IMG/VR virus record: IMGVR_UViG_3300009152_000148
Location: 1-29,816 of that record
Direction: 5' to 3' (one strand)
Source: a virus
DNA: 29,816 nucleotides
The position numbers and the translations under genes were made by a program. This document shows positions 2,249 to 20,125 of this stretch, piece by piece. The stretch's first letter is position 1. Every line of letters begins with the position of its first letter. The notes under the pieces are model-generated. The model searched no databases. It was not told the origin of the DNA and worked only from the letters and a program-made list of their open reading frames with translations.

Positions 2249-2767
2249 CTAACCTGCAGTTGTAAGAGCAGCAGCTACTGTACTATTTACTTCAGCACAT
2301 AAACTAGGTTCTGCACCTGTAAATGTTAAAGTATATCCACTTCTGTCTCCTTCAGCAGTACCAGTTGCGGCACTACCTGCTGTTAGATCTAAAGATCTTG
2401 TTTTACCTACATACCAAAACTTACCATTGTTGTCTTTAGCAACTGCAATAAGTCTGTTTTGAGCTAATAAAAGAATTTCATTTCTTGTATTTGCTTGTAA
2501 CTTATTTAAAATTATTGTTAATTCAGGGGTAAAATATAAAGTACCATTTTGTACATTTGATGCTACGTTTTCAGTAAGCATTGAAGTACCTTTTGTTAAT
2601 TCATATTTATAAAACCTCTTACCAGTTGCTTTAACTAATGCAGTAATTACACCACTTGCTTCTGTTGTTGAAGTTACATCTGAACTTGCAATAAAATAAA
2701 CTTCCGTAATACCACCTAGGGAATCACGACAATCGAGGGTATATCCCTGTGTTAATGCGCACGCCAT
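2249..2767 (-). CDS. Probable major tail (tube) protein
   Basis: The 172-residue protein lacks membrane segments and catalytic motifs. It is rich in Thr, Ala, Gly and Ser, with a beta-rich pattern typical of tube or head-tail connector proteins. It starts MACALTQGYTLDCRDSLGGI, a type I associate with tail-tube-like proteins of Bacteroidetes phages, and has FYKYELTKGTSM and FWYVGKTRSLDL segments. It directly follows the major capsid gene, separated by a terminator-like hairpin, and is followed by another terminator, an arrangement that fits a highly expressed virion protein. Start ATG 2767 is preceded by an A/T leader ending AACAAAA. It could instead be a neck or decoration protein. Confidence 0.7.
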   Translation of the reverse strand: MACALTQGYTLDCRDSLGGITEVYFIASSDVTSTTEASGVITALVKATGKRFYKYELTKGTSMLTENVASNVQNGTLYFTPELTIILNKLQANTRNEILLLAQNRLIAVAKDNNGKFWYVGKTRSLDLTAGSAATGTAEGDRSGYTLTFTGAEPSLCAEVNSTVAAALTTAG

Positions 2768-2787
2768 TTTTGTTTATTTTATTTTAT

Positions 2788-2817
2788 TAAAAAATGGGGA
2801 GTATATTGCAACTCCCC
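2788..2817 (-). terminator. Terminator-like hairpin between capsid and tube genes
   Basis: Seven paired bases GGGGAGT/ACTCCCC with an 8 nt loop, followed on the minus strand by ATTTTTTAA, begin 7 nt past the capsid stop. There is no clear promoter between it and the next gene at 2767, so it probably lets part of the transcription through and lowers tube expression relative to capsid, or acts as an RNA 3'-end stabiliser. Confidence 0.7.
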
Positions 2818-2823
2818 TTATAA

Positions 2824-3774
2824 TTAAATTGCTACTTTAACGATTTCATCAGGGAATGCTACGTTTACACCCATTTTGAATTCTGCTGCAAAACGAACTT
2901 CATCAGCTTCTTTTGCAAAAAAGATTTCAAATTTTTCCTCTTCGTTCAATAAATCGGTACCTAAGAATAAGTTACTTAATCTCATTGCATAAACATCATT
3001 TGTTCCGTTTAAACCTTGTAAAGCTACTACTTTAATAGAAGTGCCCGGCAATACAAATTCAGCATCTGCTTTAACATCAATTGAATATTGGAACATATTA
3101 GCGTTCTTCAATGCAATAGTGTAAGTTCTAAAAGTATCTTGACCACAAACGATAACCATATCTTCAGCAGCTACTACTTTAGCAGGAATTGCTTTGTAAA
3201 TACCATCAAACAAACTAACAACGTTAGCTGCTGTGATAGAACTTAAAGGTGCACCAGAAATAAATCCAGATACGTTAGCATCTACTACACCACTTGCAGC
3301 ACCAATTAATTTAATGAAACCATCAAACTTATTTAAGTTACCGTTAGCAGAAGCAGTATCTCCTTGCCATAAAGCAGTCTCTAATTGAGAAGCAATTGTT
3401 TTAGCTTTTCTATCAGAATAATCTTGCTCAAAAGGAATTGAATCATATTGGCTACCTGTTGGTAAAGCTTTTTGTAAGTATTTAGCTTCTAATGCTTTTG
3501 GACATAAAGCCTCTTGTACTTTAATCTTACCTACTGTTACAGTTCTTTGTGTGAAAGAAGTTGTACCAGATGCGTTCCAACCGCAAGTACCACCTGCTTG
3601 AAAGAAAGCGTCTGTATCCATAATATTAATGGTTTCTGCTGATTTAACACCAACCATTACGTTACCTGCACTCTTAATAAGAGCCGCAGTTTTTGCACCT
3701 AACACAGATGAAGTCACTAACTGTGCTTCGTTTTCTTTTGTGTAGTTGCTTAATGTACTAACTGAAAATGACAT
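2824..3774 (-). CDS. Major capsid protein
   Basis: The 316-residue protein follows the protease and scaffold genes in the usual order and is flanked by a terminator hairpin. It begins MSFSVSTLSNYTKENEAQL, has a Cys-containing AGGTCGWNASGTTSF stretch, a long helix (SDRKAKTIASQLETALWQGD, about residues 120-140) matching the HK97-fold spine helix, and a C-terminal part with LNEEEKFEIFFAKEADEVRF, typical of capsid proteins of this phage type. No separate maturation site can be assigned by eye. The length suits an HK97-fold capsid protein whose assembly is guided by a separate scaffold gene. Confidence 0.85.
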   Translation of the reverse strand: MSFSVSTLSNYTKENEAQLVTSSVLGAKTAALIKSAGNVMVGVKSAETINIMDTDAFFQAGGTCGWNASGTTSFTQRTVTVGKIKVQEALCPKALEAKYLQKALPTGSQYDSIPFEQDYSDRKAKTIASQLETALWQGDTASANGNLNKFDGFIKLIGAASGVVDANVSGFISGAPLSSITAANVVSLFDGIYKAIPAKVVAAEDMVIVCGQDTFRTYTIALKNANMFQYSIDVKADAEFVLPGTSIKVVALQGLNGTNDVYAMRLSNLFLGTDLLNEEEKFEIFFAKEADEVRFAAEFKMGVNVAFPDEIVKVAI

Positions 3775-3785
3775 TTTTTATAAAT

Positions 3786-4361
3786 TTATTTGTTTAAAAT
3801 TGCGTTTCTATATTTCTCTAATCTTTCATATTTAGTATCTTTAGTTGATACATATGATTGAAAAGCGTTTGCTGCTTTTTGAGTTGGTTCAGCAGTTGGA
3901 GTGTTTGAAAGTGCTTCTACTAATTCAGCTACTTGTGCAAACCCTTGCTTAACTTTACTTTCTAATTCAGCAATCTTTGTTTCTAATTGAATTTTTTGAT
4001 CTCTTAATTCTGTTACCATTGCAGTATTATCTTGCGCAGGTGCAACAGGTTGAATAGGCTCTTCCTCTACAACATCTTCTTTAGGAGAAGCTATTTCAAT
4101 GATTGTCCCTGTTTCATCTACTTGAATAGATGTACCATCCATTAATTGATGTTCACCCATTGGAGCAGGTGTGCCATCTTCCATTTCTACTTTACCACCG
4201 ACTTCTAATGCAGAAATCATAACTTTTGTTCCATCAGCTAAAGAATACTCAGCCATTTCTACTTTTGTTACCTCTTCAGTAACAGGTTCAACAGGTGGAA
4301 TAACTTGTGGCATATCTTCGAACAATGCTCTTATTTGCAATAATGCTTCTTTTGGGTTCAT
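3786..4361 (-). CDS. Capsid assembly scaffold protein
   Basis: The 191-residue protein is acidic and Glu/Pro/Val-rich. Residues about 1-20 form a helix, about 30-95 contain repeated short beta-like units around DGT motifs (ADGTKVMIS, EDGTPAPMG, MDGTSIQVD), then an EE/PVAP linker, a coiled coil (about 115-145: TELRDQKIQLETKIAELES) and a basic, helical C-terminus (YERLEKYRNAILNK) that probably contacts the capsid protein. It lies 11 nt before the capsid start and after the protease gene. Scaffold is inferred from position plus coiled coil. The DGT-rich part resembles segments I have seen in scaffold-like proteins next to Bacteroidetes phage capsids. Confidence 0.75.
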   Translation of the reverse strand: MNPKEALLQIRALFEDMPQVIPPVEPVTEEVTKVEMAEYSLADGTKVMISALEVGGKVEMEDGTPAPMGEHQLMDGTSIQVDETGTIIEIASPKEDVVEEEPIQPVAPAQDNTAMVTELRDQKIQLETKIAELESKVKQGFAQVAELVEALSNTPTAEPTQKAANAFQSYVSTKDTKYERLEKYRNAILNK

Positions 4362-11895: not shown

Positions 11896-12294
11896 TTATA
11901 TACTTAGCATTGTAAATGGTATTTGTAATGCTGTTAACCCTGAAAAATCCCTGTACATTTTAAGAAAGTATACGTGCTTTATACCTGCTTGTTTAATTAG
12001 TTTGCAACATTCAAAGCAAGGTGACAGTGTTAAGAATAAATCTGAATCTTTTGCGTTTACTCCTGCTTTTAGTATAGCATTGCACTCGGCATGGATTACT
12101 TCCTTTTTTGTAACTCCTTGTTCGTCTTCACAGTCATTGCAAAATCCTGCAGGTGTTCCATTGTAACCGTAACTAATTATATTCTTATCCTTAACTATTA
12201 TTGCACCTACTTGCGCTCTTGTACATCTGCTAAGGTTGGATACAGTTATTGCTAACTGCATATAGGTATTAAGCATTCTTAACGAAGGTTCCAT
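11896..12294 (-). CDS. Deoxycytidylate (dCMP) deaminase
   Basis: The protein (132 residues from Met at 12294) has the zinc cytidine/dCMP deaminase signature: HAE (H68, E70) and PCFEC (C93, C96) for zinc and catalysis, preceded by the CTRAQVGAIIV and GYNGTPAG substrate-binding region typical of dCMP deaminases. It converts dCMP to dUMP, the substrate of thymidylate synthase-type enzymes, and a thymidylate-synthase homologue lies about 1.7 kb upstream in the same operon. The open frame extends nine residues further to 12321, but I chose Met at 12294 because it fits the usual family N-terminus. It overlaps the MazG-like gene by 26 nt. Confidence 0.88.
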   Translation of the reverse strand: MEPSLRMLNTYMQLAITVSNLSRCTRAQVGAIIVKDKNIISYGYNGTPAGFCNDCEDEQGVTKKEVIHAECNAILKAGVNAKDSDLFLTLSPCFECCKLIKQAGIKHVYFLKMYRDFSGLTALQIPFTMLSI

Positions 12295-12571
12295 TTGACA
12301 TTTTTCCTTTACGTGATTCAATTACTTTATATGCACTATTAATACAATCTTCGAAATCTAACTTCGAAAGCTTTGCAATGCTAACTAATACTACAACACA
12401 ATCACCGATAGCGTCTTTTATTTCTGCTTCGTTTTTGTGGATTATAGCTTTAGCAAGTTCGCCTGCCTCTTCTAATAGTTTAAGTGTTTGTGTTTTAGGA
12501 TCACCTGATTCGTATATTCCTTTATCAGTTGCCCATTGTCTAATTGGTTCGAATTCATCTTTTAAGTTCAT
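12269..12571 (-). CDS. MazG-like nucleotide pyrophosphohydrolase
   Basis: The 100-residue protein carries the MazG/all-alpha NTP pyrophosphatase signature EExxE (E34, E35, E38 in LEEAGELAK) followed by ExxD (E50, D53) and a second acidic residue in DAIGD. These residues bind magnesium and cut (d)NTPs to (d)NMP and pyrophosphate. With the downstream dCMP deaminase it could reshape the dNTP pool, for instance by yielding dCMP or dUMP. The start is preceded by AAAAACTAAATACA. It overlaps the deaminase gene and the small gene upstream. Confidence 0.83.
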   Translation of the reverse strand: MNLKDEFEPIRQWATDKGIYESGDPKTQTLKLLEEAGELAKAIIHKNEAEIKDAIGDCVVVLVSIAKLSKLDFEDCINSAYKVIESRKGKMSNGTFVKNA

Positions 12572-12737
12572 TGTATTTAGTTTTTAAGTATTTAACATTA
12601 TTTAGTTTGCCTTTCTTTCTTATCTCTTCTAAGACCCTTTCTGCTTCCTCTTTGTCGTTACCGGATATTTCTGATATTAGTAAACAGTGTGGGTTTTGTC
12701 TAATGACTTTATCTATTGCTACTTTTGATTTTGCCAT
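12555..12737 (-). CDS. Small unknown protein (60 aa)
   Basis: The 60-residue charged protein reads MAKSKVAIDKVIRQNPHCLL, then an acidic helix NDKEEAERVLEEIRKKGK and a basic end. It fills the space between the asparagine-synthetase-like and MazG-like genes, overlapping both slightly (19 and 17 nt), as is normal for this genome. No family is recognised. Coding is supported by tight packing and lack of another gene there, but a gene this small could be spurious. Confidence 0.55.
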   Translation of the reverse strand: MAKSKVAIDKVIRQNPHCLLISEISGNDKEEAERVLEEIRKKGKLNNVKYLKTKYNELKR

Positions 12738-14014
12738 ATTTCAAAGTGTTTTTCTTTAACTTTATTTAAATTGTAATCCTTATCGTTCTTATGTCTAAGC
12801 GGTTTCTTTTTGCCTTGTACTACAAATGTAGGTAAAAATTCTTTATAAACGTCACGTAAAACCTTTTTATCTTGCCTATCTTTATACGGTATAGATCTAG
12901 ATAAATGTACCAATCTATTCGACATTAAAGGACTTCTTGCTTCTTTTGTGTGTATCATAGATGTTCTATCTATTCTAATGTTATGATAATAAGGTAGTTC
13001 TTTAAATACATCAAAGTCCCAAGTATCCGATTGTAATGAACGTTGATAACCACCAAACAACTCGTCTGAACCATCTCCGGTTAAAACAAATGAATTTTTA
13101 CAGTTTTTAAATAATAAATAATTAGGAAGTAAACTACCATAATCTAGTGAATGTTCATAGCAATAGATTGCATCTTTAAAATAAGATTCATCGTTTTCTA
13201 CAAATGTAACTTCTAATCCATTCTTATCACAAATATCTTTAACTGTTTCACTTTCATCTGACATATAAGAAACTATATTAATGTCTTTAGTCTTTTTCAT
13301 TACGTGATGCAATACAATGTTACTATCTAAACCTGATGAAAGCAATAAAGATATACCATCAATCCTATTTTCTAATCTATCTGTAACTGACTTTTCTATT
13401 AGATCATATAGATTGCCATTTAAAATACCTTTAAAGTAATTAATTGTACTAATTCTATTTGCTAAAGAATTATCATAGTAATAACAATATAATACACCTG
13501 GAATAAATCTAGATATATTAGAAAAGTTAGTATCCATTCTGCCAAATGAATATATATCATATACCATGTAACGATATTCGGAATCAATTAATGGTTTAAT
13601 TTCCGATGATATACCTTTTGAACTATAATACAATTGCTTTTTACCTAATGGATCTGTAAAAGAATATATAGAACTATTTTTATAAATAATAGAGATTGCC
13701 CAAAAGCCATCCCACTTAATAGATTCAGTATATAGTTTTATTATATCTTGATTAAACGATTTAAATATATCTTGCAAATAATGTAGATCTGATTTTGCTC
13801 TTGGATTAAGTTCTTTATAATTAAATATCTCACCATTAAATACTAAGATACAATTAGAAAATACTAAGGGTTGTTTAATGCCTTGGTTATTAGAACTTAA
13901 TGGCAAAGAATTAAAACAAACATTCCAATTACTATATAGTTCATTAACCTCTTCACTGCCTCTATGTTTAATTAGATTTGGTATAGTTTCTTTTGTTATT
14001 GTAAATCCACACAT
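12719..14014 (-). CDS. Compact glutamine-dependent asparagine synthetase-like amidotransferase
   Basis: All hallmark motifs are visible in 431 residues, short for a family usually near 550-630. Cys2 follows the initiator Met (MCGF) as the glutaminase nucleophile, with HRGS (17-20) and NGEIFNY (60-66) in the class II glutaminase domain. The synthetase half has the PP-loop SSGLDS (226-231), LTGDGSDELFGGY (311-323) and R-SPLMSNRLV. It should hydrolyse glutamine and transfer ammonia to an ATP-activated carboxylate. In the phage the acceptor could be free aspartate or a carboxylate on a modified base or sugar. Its ATG overlaps the stop of the thymidylate-synthase-like gene by one base, suggesting coupled expression. 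Confidence 0.88.
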   Translation of the reverse strand: MCGFTITKETIPNLIKHRGSEEVNELYSNWNVCFNSLPLSSNNQGIKQPLVFSNCILVFNGEIFNYKELNPRAKSDLHYLQDIFKSFNQDIIKLYTESIKWDGFWAISIIYKNSSIYSFTDPLGKKQLYYSSKGISSEIKPLIDSEYRYMVYDIYSFGRMDTNFSNISRFIPGVLYCYYYDNSLANRISTINYFKGILNGNLYDLIEKSVTDRLENRIDGISLLLSSGLDSNIVLHHVMKKTKDINIVSYMSDESETVKDICDKNGLEVTFVENDESYFKDAIYCYEHSLDYGSLLPNYLLFKNCKNSFVLTGDGSDELFGGYQRSLQSDTWDFDVFKELPYYHNIRIDRTSMIHTKEARSPLMSNRLVHLSRSIPYKDRQDKKVLRDVYKEFLPTFVVQGKKKPLRHKNDKDYNLNKVKEKHFEIWQNQK

Positions 14015-14709
14015 TATTTTATCATTTTGTTTAGTGTATATAAATCTGATTTAAAACAATGTAAGTTGCCAATCCATACATTCATATTGCCAGGTTGTAA
14101 TCCAATTTGTGTTGCTACATGTTCTAATAAACGATACGTCATATATAAATCATTTTTAAAATGCCTAACTATATCGCAAGACCTAATTAAATAAGTAACT
14201 TCCAATTTATTATCCACCCGATTAAACCAATAACCAATTGTACATGGAACACGTTCGCCATGATTAGATTGATCTTCTGGATGCCAAACAGATAGGAATG
14301 CTTGTCTTGTATATGTATTTATTTTAAGTCTTTCTATTATATCATTTAAATCACCGTAGTCAAATCTAATACCTTTAAAGCCTTTACACCAATACCTTTC
14401 CATATAGTTATGACTAAACTTACCGCCCGATCTAAATAGATCATCATTATCTAATGATTTATAATAAGGCCAATTCTTGTATTCATTACCTGGATTAATT
14501 GGTTGACCATTAATTCTTTCTTTAAAATGATCCTCAGACCAAGGCATATCTTGATTTAGATCTTGTATATTATCAATAGTAAAAAATATATTATTTAATG
14601 AAACCATCGGATTGTTTTCATTTATTTTAATAGATTGCCATTCCGTATTATTTGAAACAGTATTATATATTAAAAATTGTTTTATAATTTGTTTTAACTT
14701 CTTATTCAT
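14014..14709 (-). CDS. Thymidylate synthase-family protein (possible pyrimidine hydroxymethylase)
   Basis: The 231-residue protein shows ThyA-fold core motifs: YTRQAFLSVWHPEDQ (133-147), ERVPCTIGYWF with the catalytic Cys156, RSCD (176-179), and GLQPGNMNVWIGNLHCF. The usual His after Pro-Cys is Thr here, and the C-terminus ends about 10 residues past the H-containing motif, lacking the roughly 45 residues that close over folate in ThyA. The family adds a one-carbon unit at C5 of dUMP or dCMP. An Asp (D187) falls near the residue that is Asn in thymidylate synthase and Asp in dCMP hydroxymethylases, but alignment there is uncertain. Gene order with the synthetase, MazG and deaminase genes points to nucleotide or base modification. 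Confidence 0.8.
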   Translation of the reverse strand: MNKKLKQIIKQFLIYNTVSNNTEWQSIKINENNPMVSLNNIFFTIDNIQDLNQDMPWSEDHFKERINGQPINPGNEYKNWPYYKSLDNDDLFRSGGKFSHNYMERYWCKGFKGIRFDYGDLNDIIERLKINTYTRQAFLSVWHPEDQSNHGERVPCTIGYWFNRVDNKLEVTYLIRSCDIVRHFKNDLYMTYRLLEHVATQIGLQPGNMNVWIGNLHCFKSDLYTLNKMIK

Positions 14710-14998
14710 TACTAATTGTTATATCATTATCAAATTTTATATTCTCTTGGTAGTTATTTAATGCACCTACATAAGCTGCAACATCTAATAAGTTATCTTG
14801 TTTATGAGAATGACTTTCTCTAGCTAACTTTAATGCAATTTGAAAATTATAAATATCAAGTGTTGTAATTTCTTTATTAGAAAGTACAGATGCAATTATA
14901 GCAGCTTTTTTATTACATAAACTAAACGGACCATACTCTCGTTCTTTCTCTTCTGATCGTTTGTTTACTATTTCATTTGCTTTTTCTAGTATATTCAT
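14702..14998 (-). CDS. DUF6378-like small protein
   Basis: The 98-residue protein has R-SEEKEREYGPF, then a helical stretch ending KLARESHSHKQDNLLDVAAYV (about 53-76). This R...YG plus KxAR...DNxxDxxxY arrangement matches the DUF6378 type of phage proteins, whose biochemistry is unknown to me but which recurs near nucleotide metabolism genes. Its 3' end overlaps the thymidylate-synthase-like gene by 8 nt and its ATG overlaps the stop of the tiny membrane gene upstream. Confidence 0.65.
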   Translation of the reverse strand: MNILEKANEIVNKRSEEKEREYGPFSLCNKKAAIIASVLSNKEITTLDIYNFQIALKLARESHSHKQDNLLDVAAYVGALNNYQENIKFDNDITISNE

Positions 14999-18305: not shown

Positions 18306-18550
18306 CCTAGTTTTTCTTTATGTTTTTGTTTTAAAAATTCTATATATTGTTTTTTATCCCCATATTGTAAATGATGCTCTCTGCATAATGCCATAAGGTT
18401 TTCTATTGTATCTCCTTTTTTTGTTCCCCCCATTCCCCTTGCTTCAATATGATGAATATCTACTGCCCTTGCTCCACAAGTTTCACAAGGTATAAAATCC
18501 TCACCTGTGTAACCAAAATGGTTCAAATATATTTTAGTGTGATTCTTCAT
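18302..18550 (-). CDS. HNH endonuclease
   Basis: The 82-residue protein carries a complete HNH/zinc signature: CETC (C22, C25), DIHHIEARG with the catalytic HH (33-34), ENLMALC (N51, C56) and HH (59-60). It is a short free-standing nuclease. HNH genes beside terminase genes are common in tailed phages of the cos-type, where the HNH protein helps the terminase cut the packaging site. It could alternatively be a homing-type nuclease, but its operon position favours packaging. Confidence 0.88.
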   Translation of the reverse strand: MKNHTKIYLNHFGYTGEDFIPCETCGARAVDIHHIEARGMGGTKKGDTIENLMALCREHHLQYGDKKQYIEFLKQKHKEKLG

Positions 18551-19541
18551 TACCTATTAGTTTATTATATATAGCAAATCTTTTATTATTTATTGCCTCA
18601 AAGTTAAACTCCTTGTCACAAAATTCAAAAAGTTTCTGTCCGTATTCTATCCTTGCTGCTTCATCAAAGGTCAATAGCTTAATCCACTTGTACCAATCCG
18701 TTTGTTTATTTACATAGCAAACAGGCATATTTTTATATGGATGAACATTACTAACAATTGCCGGGTTTTTCTTTGTAGCAGTTTCTAATACCTTTAAATT
18801 AGATTTCATTGAACCAAATTTGTTTTCTACTAAAGGAATTATACTTATGTCTGAATCAGCATAAGCACCCATATACTTTGTAATTTCTGCATAGTCATAT
18901 ATGGTAGGGTTTAACTTTAAACCATTAGTAAATACCCCTATCATTCTATCCCAAAGATGTTTTTCCCCTAAATTATATCCTGCTATAACTGTACGAACCG
19001 GAAAGTTTATTTTTTTCATTGGTTGTCGTAGTATATCTAAATCAACTGTATGAGTTCCAGAACCTGACCAAAACAACCTAACCATATCTGATTCAATCTT
19101 ATTATCTTGGAACTGCTCTTTACCATAAGGTAATGCGTTTGGAAGTATCTTAACATTAGAATTATAAATTGCTATTTCATCTGCAAGTCTTTCGTGTGTA
19201 CATGTGCAAAGGTCTGCTATTCTAATAAAGTCGGTTATTCTTTTTGTTACATCACTATCCCTGTATCTTGAATATAAAATATGTGAAGGTGGTAAAATCC
19301 AATAGTCATCATTATCAACCACTAACTTAAACTTGTATCTCTTTCGCATAGCCTCTAGCATAATTATTTCAGTATGTGCTAGGAATCTATTGAATATTAC
19401 TATGTCATAATTGTTATCAAATACTGCTTCATTAATTGTATCTGTAATTAAACAATAATTTTTACGCATATTAACTAATGGCATTATTATTCTATGATAG
19501 CCAACCCCACTAAATTTACTTGTTATTGCTAGGATTCTCAT
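18534..19541 (-). CDS. Glycosyltransferase (GT-B fold, GT4-like)
   Basis: The 335-residue protein starts MRILAITSKFSGVGYHRIIM, with a GVGYHR sugar-transfer-type N-terminus, and shows GT-B features: an N-terminal Rossmann half with VVDNDDYW and ILPNALPYGKE, and a C-terminal half with SNLKVLETATKKNPAIVSNV and PYKNMPVCYVN, like the E-x7-E-type nucleotide-sugar site of GT4 enzymes. It would transfer a sugar from an activated donor. Its ATG overlaps the stop of the GT-A-like gene by 4 nt and it overlaps the HNH gene by 17 nt. The acceptor is unknown. Confidence 0.75.
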   Translation of the reverse strand: MRILAITSKFSGVGYHRIIMPLVNMRKNYCLITDTINEAVFDNNYDIVIFNRFLAHTEIIMLEAMRKRYKFKLVVDNDDYWILPPSHILYSRYRDSDVTKRITDFIRIADLCTCTHERLADEIAIYNSNVKILPNALPYGKEQFQDNKIESDMVRLFWSGSGTHTVDLDILRQPMKKINFPVRTVIAGYNLGEKHLWDRMIGVFTNGLKLNPTIYDYAEITKYMGAYADSDISIIPLVENKFGSMKSNLKVLETATKKNPAIVSNVHPYKNMPVCYVNKQTDWYKWIKLLTFDEAARIEYGQKLFEFCDKEFNFEAINNKRFAIYNKLIGNEESH

Positions 19542-20125
19542 AAAGGAAGGTAATATGTTTTGCTGCCATTTGAATAGTTTGCAACATTGCTAGTATGTAA
19601 TTCCCAAGTACTTTTGACTAATTCATTCTTGTTATAACCATAAGCATCTATTCCATTCTGTTCTATATGAGTTGCCCAACCTGAATGAATATATTTAGTA
19701 TATAATCCTGCTGCTCTTACTCGTGTGCAATAGTCAAGGTCAATAGCACCATAAGGGTCAAGTGCAGTATTAAACGCACCTACATTTTTTATAACTTCTT
19801 TGCTTATTGTAAAGTTTCCTATTATATCTGTTGTGTCATCAAAGCCACCGACTAATGGTATTGCACATATACCTACGCTTTTGTCTTGCATAAATATATT
19901 TCTTACCTTTAACCAATTATCAGGCTCTAAAATATCATTAGATAACAAAGTAACATATTGAATGTTGCTAAAGTCTATTTTATTTAGACCAACATTAATA
20001 GCATTAGCGATTCCTTTTTCTTTTACTATTACAACTTGCTCAACATCTAAACCTGCATTAGATAAGTTGATGCCTAATGTTTTAACACTATAATTTTTGT
20101 AGTTTAAAAATATTACTGCGTTCAT
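19538..20125 (-). CDS. Glycosyltransferase family 2-like (GT-A)
   Basis: The 195-residue protein begins MNAVIFLNYKNYSVKTLGIN and shows GT-A-type features: LLSNDILEPDNW (an acidic metal/sugar-binding loop after a strand), GGFDDTTDIIGNFTISKEVI, GAFNTALDPYGAIDLDYCTR (acceptor/catalytic acidic loop) and a final YGYNKNELV stretch. It is shorter than usual GT2 enzymes but holds the core. It lies 4 nt overlapped between the acyltransferase and the GT-B gene, forming a three-gene sugar cassette. Confidence 0.72.
   Translation of the reverse strand: MNAVIFLNYKNYSVKTLGINLSNAGLDVEQVVIVKEKGIANAINVGLNKIDFSNIQYVTLLSNDILEPDNWLKVRNIFMQDKSVGICAIPLVGGFDDTTDIIGNFTISKEVIKNVGAFNTALDPYGAIDLDYCTRVRAAGLYTKYIHSGWATHIEQNGIDAYGYNKNELVKSTWELHTSNVANYSNGSKTYYLPL

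Follow-up and report, generated by a model that had tools for sequence, protein, structure and literature searches.

An overlapping ThyA-like/AsnB-like gene pair as the proposed core of a viral cytosine-hypermodification pathway

The DNA analyzed here is an entire IMG/VR virus record (IMGVR_UViG_3300009152_000148; 29,816 bases, hereafter the window), in which six genes, each overlapping the next, occupy positions 11896–14998 of the minus strand. Two of these, encoding a homolog of thymidylate synthase (TS) and a homolog of asparagine synthetase B (referred to as ThyA-like and AsnB-like), are the main subject of this report. With moderate confidence, we propose that these overlapping genes form the core of a viral cytosine-hypermodification pathway, ending in a 5-substituted cytosine that bears an amide. 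The pair is real and widespread and apparently undescribed, no paper on the combination having been found in a literature search for which subscription papers were mostly out of reach. An earlier reading of this DNA, made from the sequence only, had suggested a role in base modification. That idea holds, and the route it had drawn is revised below.

Conservation of the gene pair

A scan of viral contigs seeded with the ThyA-like protein gave 80 loci (L001–L080). Among the close ThyA relatives (L001–L035), an AsnB-like gene adjoins the ThyA-like gene in nearly all loci for which the contig was long enough, with DUF6378 found upstream of the pair and MazG often downstream; the loci of the more distant relatives (L036–L080) have no AsnB gene. 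Close copies (L001–L003) are 86–99% identical, and the pairing persists in other viruses down to about 33% AsnB identity. A second scan, seeded with AsnB and retaining the best 80 of 175 relatives, gave 82 usable loci, with a ThyA-like gene present in 53 of them, the first AsnB alignment that served as its seed having been drawn mostly from ThyA-linked copies. When the AsnB proteins were clustered at 80% identity, a ThyA-like gene was found in the locus for 32 of the 43 clusters. In 22 of these the two genes overlap or abut, three times in reversed order (L129, L137, and L151). The ThyA partners are diverse and some belong to a divergent ThyA subfamily. Against a background in which any ThyA-like match occurs in only 455 of 50,697 cultured-phage records, the pairing is far above chance. 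The single base shared by the two genes of the window (14014) is real, and the paired function that the sequence-only reading had drawn from this overlap is supported by the clusters described above; the conservation in relatives, which it had named as a check, was found. The AsnB-like protein of the window itself had no match in cultured phages at 1e-3, and a carrier whose DNA chemistry is known thus cannot be named.

The AsnB loci without an adjoining ThyA gene are mostly pieces of jumbo phages. Whole contigs, picked by AsnB alone, were searched with a ThyA-like profile, and a ThyA-like gene was identified on the two large contigs of the first set, 270 kb and 430 kb long, and on eight of eight further contigs (230–373 kb) from another AsnB-seeded scan. 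All ten contigs of at least 230 kb carry the A2 type of ThyA-like gene, which is the compact family of the window, although the independent number is below ten, as L299, L300, and L301 seem to come from a single genome. The distance from the ThyA-like to the AsnB-like gene is about 60–130 kb in those large contigs that were compared, and nine of the ten additionally encode a canonical ThyA. A ThyA-like gene was found on only one of 12 contigs of 100–163 kb, as would be expected for fragments of genomes whose two genes are widely spaced. On the 430-kb contig (L163; G024:C1:396529–398406), the ThyA-like gene is a single frame of 637 residues with an intein-like insertion precisely at the catalytic Cys (VPC/FTGEIEI...VHN/CTIGYHF). 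In the jumbo loci, a gene of 255 residues lying downstream of AsnB was suspected to be a divergent ThyA and was rejected, as it matches no family.

It could be argued that the phage makes 5-hydroxymethylcytosine only and that the AsnB-like enzyme merely travels along, acting on a non-nucleotide substrate such as a host metabolite, the envelope or a protein. AsnB-family amidotransferases do use many acids, and the substrate is unreadable from the sequence. However, the two genes are found together in compact operons, with their order reversed in some loci, and at long distances from each other in jumbo phages. This favors a shared pathway, and we regard hitch-hiking as unlikely.

The ThyA-like enzyme

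The ThyA-like protein has the TS fold, its model aligning to TS structures with Z scores of 16.9–17.6, and a catalytic Cys in a PC motif (Cys156, followed by Thr157). This Cys is kept in 77 of 77 AsnB-linked copies. Asp187 of the window protein aligns with Asn177 of Escherichia coli TS, the position that selects deoxyuridine monophosphate (dUMP), and Asp is found there in all 77 AsnB-linked copies as well as in all 54 other family members with a residue at this site. The residue after the catalytic Cys (position 147) is Thr or Ser in the family. By profile alignment, the best match in the PDB (1njc, a TS) has Asp at the site aligned with Asn177. The deoxycytidine monophosphate (dCMP) hydroxymethylase of phage HY126 has the same Asp aligned, and the canonical ThyA of Achromobacter phage Motura, taken as a control, has Asn. 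Replacement of Asn177 by Asp shifts TS toward dCMP, and in the MetaGPA study the TS-family genes of contigs with modified cytosine were best told apart from the others by positions 177 and 147 (PMC8670742). Given Asp at 177 and Thr/Ser at 147, the substrate of the ThyA-like enzyme is predicted to be dCMP rather than dUMP. The sequence-only reading had placed a deaminase and dUMP on the route. This dCMP-type signature (PMC8670742) speaks against such a route, and dCMP deaminase is not a constant companion of the pair, deaminase genes (cluster 19) being present in only 16 of the 82 AsnB loci.

The model of the ThyA-like protein aligns to residues 1–221 of the 264 of E. coli TS, the C-terminal ~43 residues being absent. 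In TS, this C-terminal segment shields the reaction intermediate. Both hallmarks of a dTMP (thymidine monophosphate) synthase, Asn177 and the closing C-terminal segment, are lacking, and those of a dCMP hydroxymethylase (Asp at 177, a residue other than His at 147, and a compact C terminus) are all present. A role in dTMP synthesis is also disfavored by the canonical ThyA of the nine large contigs and by the ThyX cluster common to L131, L139, and L155. By these features, the ThyA-like protein is something other than a dTMP synthase. Hydroxymethylation is favored over methylation because of the compact form and the HY126 enzyme, making 5-hydroxymethyl-dCMP the most likely product. The HY126 enzyme (AfhB, PDB 9iqu) and T4 gp42 share with the ThyA-like protein the TS fold, Asp at 177, and PC(T); AfhB is similarly compact at 234–238 residues, but in a structural alignment has only 17% identity to the window protein. 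No paper on HY126 was found in the literature search.

In actinophages, a phrog_13667 protein is encoded directly upstream of the same dCMP-type ThyA (L165:4048–4941, which is Mycobacterium phage Muddy gp47, and L167:3868–4929), a position where another second-step enzyme might be expected.

The AsnB-like enzyme

The AlphaFold model of the AsnB-like protein (predicted local distance difference test score, pLDDT, 94) superimposes on E. coli AsnB (1ct9) with a Z score of 36.7 over 393 residues (root-mean-square deviation 2.8, 22% identity). The likeness covers the whole fold, a class II glutamine amidotransferase followed by a PP-loop domain, together with the Cys, the PP-loop, and the catalytic Lys. 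Retained in the window protein are Cys2, Asn60-Gly61-Glu62, Asp76, SSGLDS (226–231), GDGSDE, and Lys403, with the N-terminal Cys, NGE, Asp, PP-loop, and Lys403 conserved across the family. It differs from AsnB in being shorter (431 against 553 residues) and in its binding sites. E. coli Arg325, which we take to be the Arg of the aspartate site, is replaced by Gly293, and Gly is found there in nearly all members; the Arg that binds the carboxylate of glutamine is Ser36 in the window clade and is kept in jumbo-type members. The protein also falls far below curated cut-offs, scoring 123.1 bits against TIGR01536, which is under half the cut-off of 267, and 79.3 bits against NF006949 (cut-off 499). 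A search of cellular genomes gave 420 matches, of which the best 80 are generic AsnB-like proteins of 21–31% identity. A close match to host AsnB enzymes, which would have counted against the sequence-only reading, was therefore not found.

By these comparisons the AsnB-like family is phage-specific and is not an asparagine synthetase. As the aspartate-site Arg is lost, the scores lie below the cut-offs and cellular identity does not exceed 31%, the enzyme is expected to amidate some acid other than aspartate, using ammonia or another amine. The Pfam and PHROG labels alone would point to an ordinary nucleotide-pool operon, with dTMP as the product of the ThyA-like enzyme and asparagine as that of the AsnB-like enzyme. 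Such an operon is very improbable given the invariant Asp at the dUMP-selecting position, the absent C-terminal segment, the second, canonical ThyA of most large contigs, the low TIGR01536 score, and the lost Arg.

Two AsnB-like genes depart from the family pattern. At L033:6696–8036 the catalytic Cys is replaced by Ser and both the PP-loop Asp and the GDGxDE motif are lost, with the overlapping ThyA-like gene intact; this is probably a pseudoenzyme. The gene at L006:2709–4036 apparently lies in two frames (2709–3149 and 3149–4036), which could represent a frameshift, a sequencing error or separate subunits.

The proposed pathway

In the first step proposed, dCMP would receive at C5 a one-carbon unit that the ThyA-like enzyme takes from methylene-tetrahydrofolate. 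The product would most likely be 5-hydroxymethyl-dCMP, in view of the dCMP-selecting Asp and of a compact form like that of the solved phage dCMP hydroxymethylase. In the second step, the AsnB-like enzyme would adenylate a carboxylate at its PP-loop and couple it either with ammonia freed in the N-terminal nucleophile (Ntn) domain or with a different amine; the base at the end of the pathway would be a 5-substituted cytosine with an amide. MazG, DUF6378, the deaminase, dUTPase, and a TMK-like kinase come and go around the pair and would adjust the nucleotide pool. The sequence of the ThyA-like protein gives good support to a substitution at C5 of dCMP as its predicted reaction. That an amide is placed on the C5 side chain we infer by analogy, from the AsnB fold and from the precedents of CmoY and of phage AsnB-like genes in modification clusters, both described in the next section. 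By analogy with known phage modifications, the benefit to the virus would likely be the shielding of its DNA from host nucleases.

A number of observations weigh against this pathway. No enzyme supplying a carboxylate was recognized, and CmoA was absent in 26 + 9 records including the window. No kinase for deoxynucleoside monophosphates was recognized among the window proteins scanned. Glutamine-derived ammonia is not assured in the window clade, because the Arg for the glutamine carboxylate is Ser there. In jumbo phages the two genes are widely separated, and the flanks of the ThyA-like gene hold no recognizable modification genes. A search for Tet_JBP gave no matches in 12 records, but the control was likewise at zero, so this result says little.

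The missing carboxylate would be provided if the ThyA-like enzyme, in the manner of MnmEG on tRNA uridine, were to admit an amino acid such as glycine in place of water as the nucleophile at the C5 methylene of dCMP; the AsnB-like enzyme would then amidate the resulting carboxylate and no further gene would be needed. It fits this route that the ThyA/AsnB pair alone is constant among the loci, the other neighbors varying, and that the ThyA-like protein lacks the C-terminal segment that shields the intermediate. However, the same compact dCMP-type ThyA is widespread without AsnB (L036–L080; actinophages), where plain hydroxymethylation is the simplest explanation. We hold this route to be doubtful, and equally doubtful its consequence, which would be an undescribed amide-bearing cytosine present in small phages as well as in many of the jumbo kind.

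PP-loop enzymes such as GuaA, TilS, and ThiI adenylate the carbonyl oxygens of nucleobases, and the PP-loop domain of the AsnB-like protein also resembles GMP synthetase (2dpl, Z score 10.7). The enzyme might by this precedent aminate a carbonyl of the pyrimidine ring, as GMP synthetase does on xanthosine monophosphate, and not act on a side-chain carboxylate. Amination at C4 would, however, be pointless if the first enzyme already takes dCMP (Asp187), amination at C2 would spoil pairing with G, and the fold of the whole protein is that of AsnB, not GuaA. Ring amination is consequently considered quite unlikely.

If the proposed amidation pathway is true, it would represent a new second step for ThyA-based cytosine hypermodification and would mean that AsnB-family enzymes have been recruited by phages more than once for base chemistry. 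The pair spans viral DNA from about 30 kb (contigs) to 230–430 kb (genomes), so the base could be widespread among environmental viruses. It would also be a candidate means of resisting restriction and CRISPR, and the pathway a source of enzymes for cytosine labeling.

Comparison with known systems

In the T4-type pathway the second step is carried out by a glucosyltransferase, in place of which an AsnB-fold enzyme is found here. The 5-hydroxymethylcytosine carbamoyltransferase system found by MetaGPA is similar in having a TS-family gene with Asp177, neighboring genes for dCMP deaminase and a nucleotide pyrophosphohydrolase, and a second enzyme dedicated to cytosine; that second enzyme, however, is a TobZ-like O-carbamoyltransferase and not an AsnB-like amidotransferase (PMC8670742). 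Amidotransferase and Asn_synthase domains go unmentioned in the main text of that study (PMC8670742).

Phage S-B43 encodes an AsnB homolog, CmoY, by which glycine is joined to 5-carboxymethylcytosine; among ligases of the CmoY type there is another group that carries a glutamine-hydrolyzing domain (PMC12783734). In the CmoA/CmoX/CmoY system, too, a phage locus for cytosine modification encodes an ATP-dependent enzyme of the AsnB family that forms an amide, but there the carbon is placed in DNA by a DNA methyltransferase that uses carboxy-S-adenosylmethionine (Cx-SAM) (PMC12783734). In the window family, the carbon is predicted to be placed on dCMP by the ThyA-like enzyme, without CmoA, and the two AsnB groups are only distantly related.

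In Streptomyces phage TurkishDelight, gp123–125 (L251:6673–10101) are, in a row, a C5-methyltransferase with an SPPC motif, an AsnB homolog with a glutamine domain, and a CmoA-like protein, which is probably a 5-carboxymethylcytosine amidation cluster in a cultured phage. Phage Motura encodes an AsnB-like amidotransferase (L250:8001–9281) within a 7-deazaguanine DNA-modification cluster (QueC, TGT-like, QueE); this, however, is a purine pathway, and the ThyA of the phage has Asn at 177. The AsnB-like proteins of both phages are only distant relatives of that of the window. The sequence-only reading could put no name to the grouping of the two genes. This stands for the pair, but AsnB-family enzymes as such are known or seen in phage base-modification clusters, as in the case of CmoY, Motura, and TurkishDelight.

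Some CmoA/CmoX clusters do contain an AsnB-family relative that has an amidotransferase domain (TurkishDelight; PMC12783734). By that token, CmoA and CmoX could make 5-carboxymethylcytosine and the AsnB-like enzyme could ligate an amine to it, leaving the ThyA-like gene incidental. This is extremely unlikely, as CmoA is absent from the window and 34 other carrier records, the C5-methyltransferase-like gene of 10 loci is without the SPPC motif, and the TurkishDelight and Motura proteins are so distantly related.

The operon and its companion genes

All six open reading frames (ORFs) of the operon (Table 1) lie where the sequence-only reading had placed them, and Pfam agrees with the identities it gave; the 60-residue ORF has no match. 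Taken in the order of the table, consecutive genes overlap by 8, 1, 19, 17, and up to 53 nucleotides. The deaminase ORF begins with TTG, a likely alternative start being an in-frame ATG at about 12294.

Table 1. Genes of the overlapping operon in the window.
Product	Positions	Strand	Length (residues)	Pfam match and assignment
DUF6378 protein	14702–14998	−	98	DUF6378, 2e-10
ThyA-like	14014–14709	−	231	Thymidylat_synt, 4.8e-13, residues 118–230 only; predicted dCMP-type C5 hydroxymethylase
AsnB-like	12719–14014	−	431	Asn_synthase, 8.8e-27, and GATase_7, 5.3e-9; class II glutamine amidotransferase and PP-loop ATP pyrophosphatase
60-residue protein	12555–12737	−	60	No Pfam match
MazG-type NTP pyrophosphohydrolase	12269–12571	−	100	MazG, 5.7e-10
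dCMP deaminase	11896–12321	−	up to 141	dCMP_cyt_deam_1, 6.2e-23

Among the 53 AsnB loci that contain a ThyA-like gene, DUF6378 is present in 37 and the MazG cluster in 28. The 60-residue protein was found in L002–L004, L006, L032, and L034. Of the AsnB loci, 23 contain a gene for a TMK-like kinase (phrog_761), which often lies immediately upstream of AsnB and hints that in those phages modification may occur at the nucleotide stage, as in T4. Cluster 34, present in 10 loci (e.g., L112:5674–6792, L099:4060–5178, and L139:4262–5491), resembles C5-cytosine methyltransferases, with PEC or TEC in motif IV instead of PPC; its gene adjoins the ThyA-like and AsnB-like genes and often lies between them. 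A different methyltransferase of the N4/N6 type (cluster 39) is found in eight loci.

Elsewhere in the window, the ORFs include structural genes, a large terminase, and an Erf-like recombinase, and no replicative DNA polymerase was recognized among those scanned. A glycosyltransferase is encoded at 18534–19541 (phrog_7162, 1.3e-57), near the terminase genes, followed by a second, weak glycosyltransferase match at 19538–20125. Among the fetched loci, the glycosyltransferase was found only in the near-identical relatives L001 and L005, which places it outside the conserved pair, and it could act on hydroxymethylcytosine.

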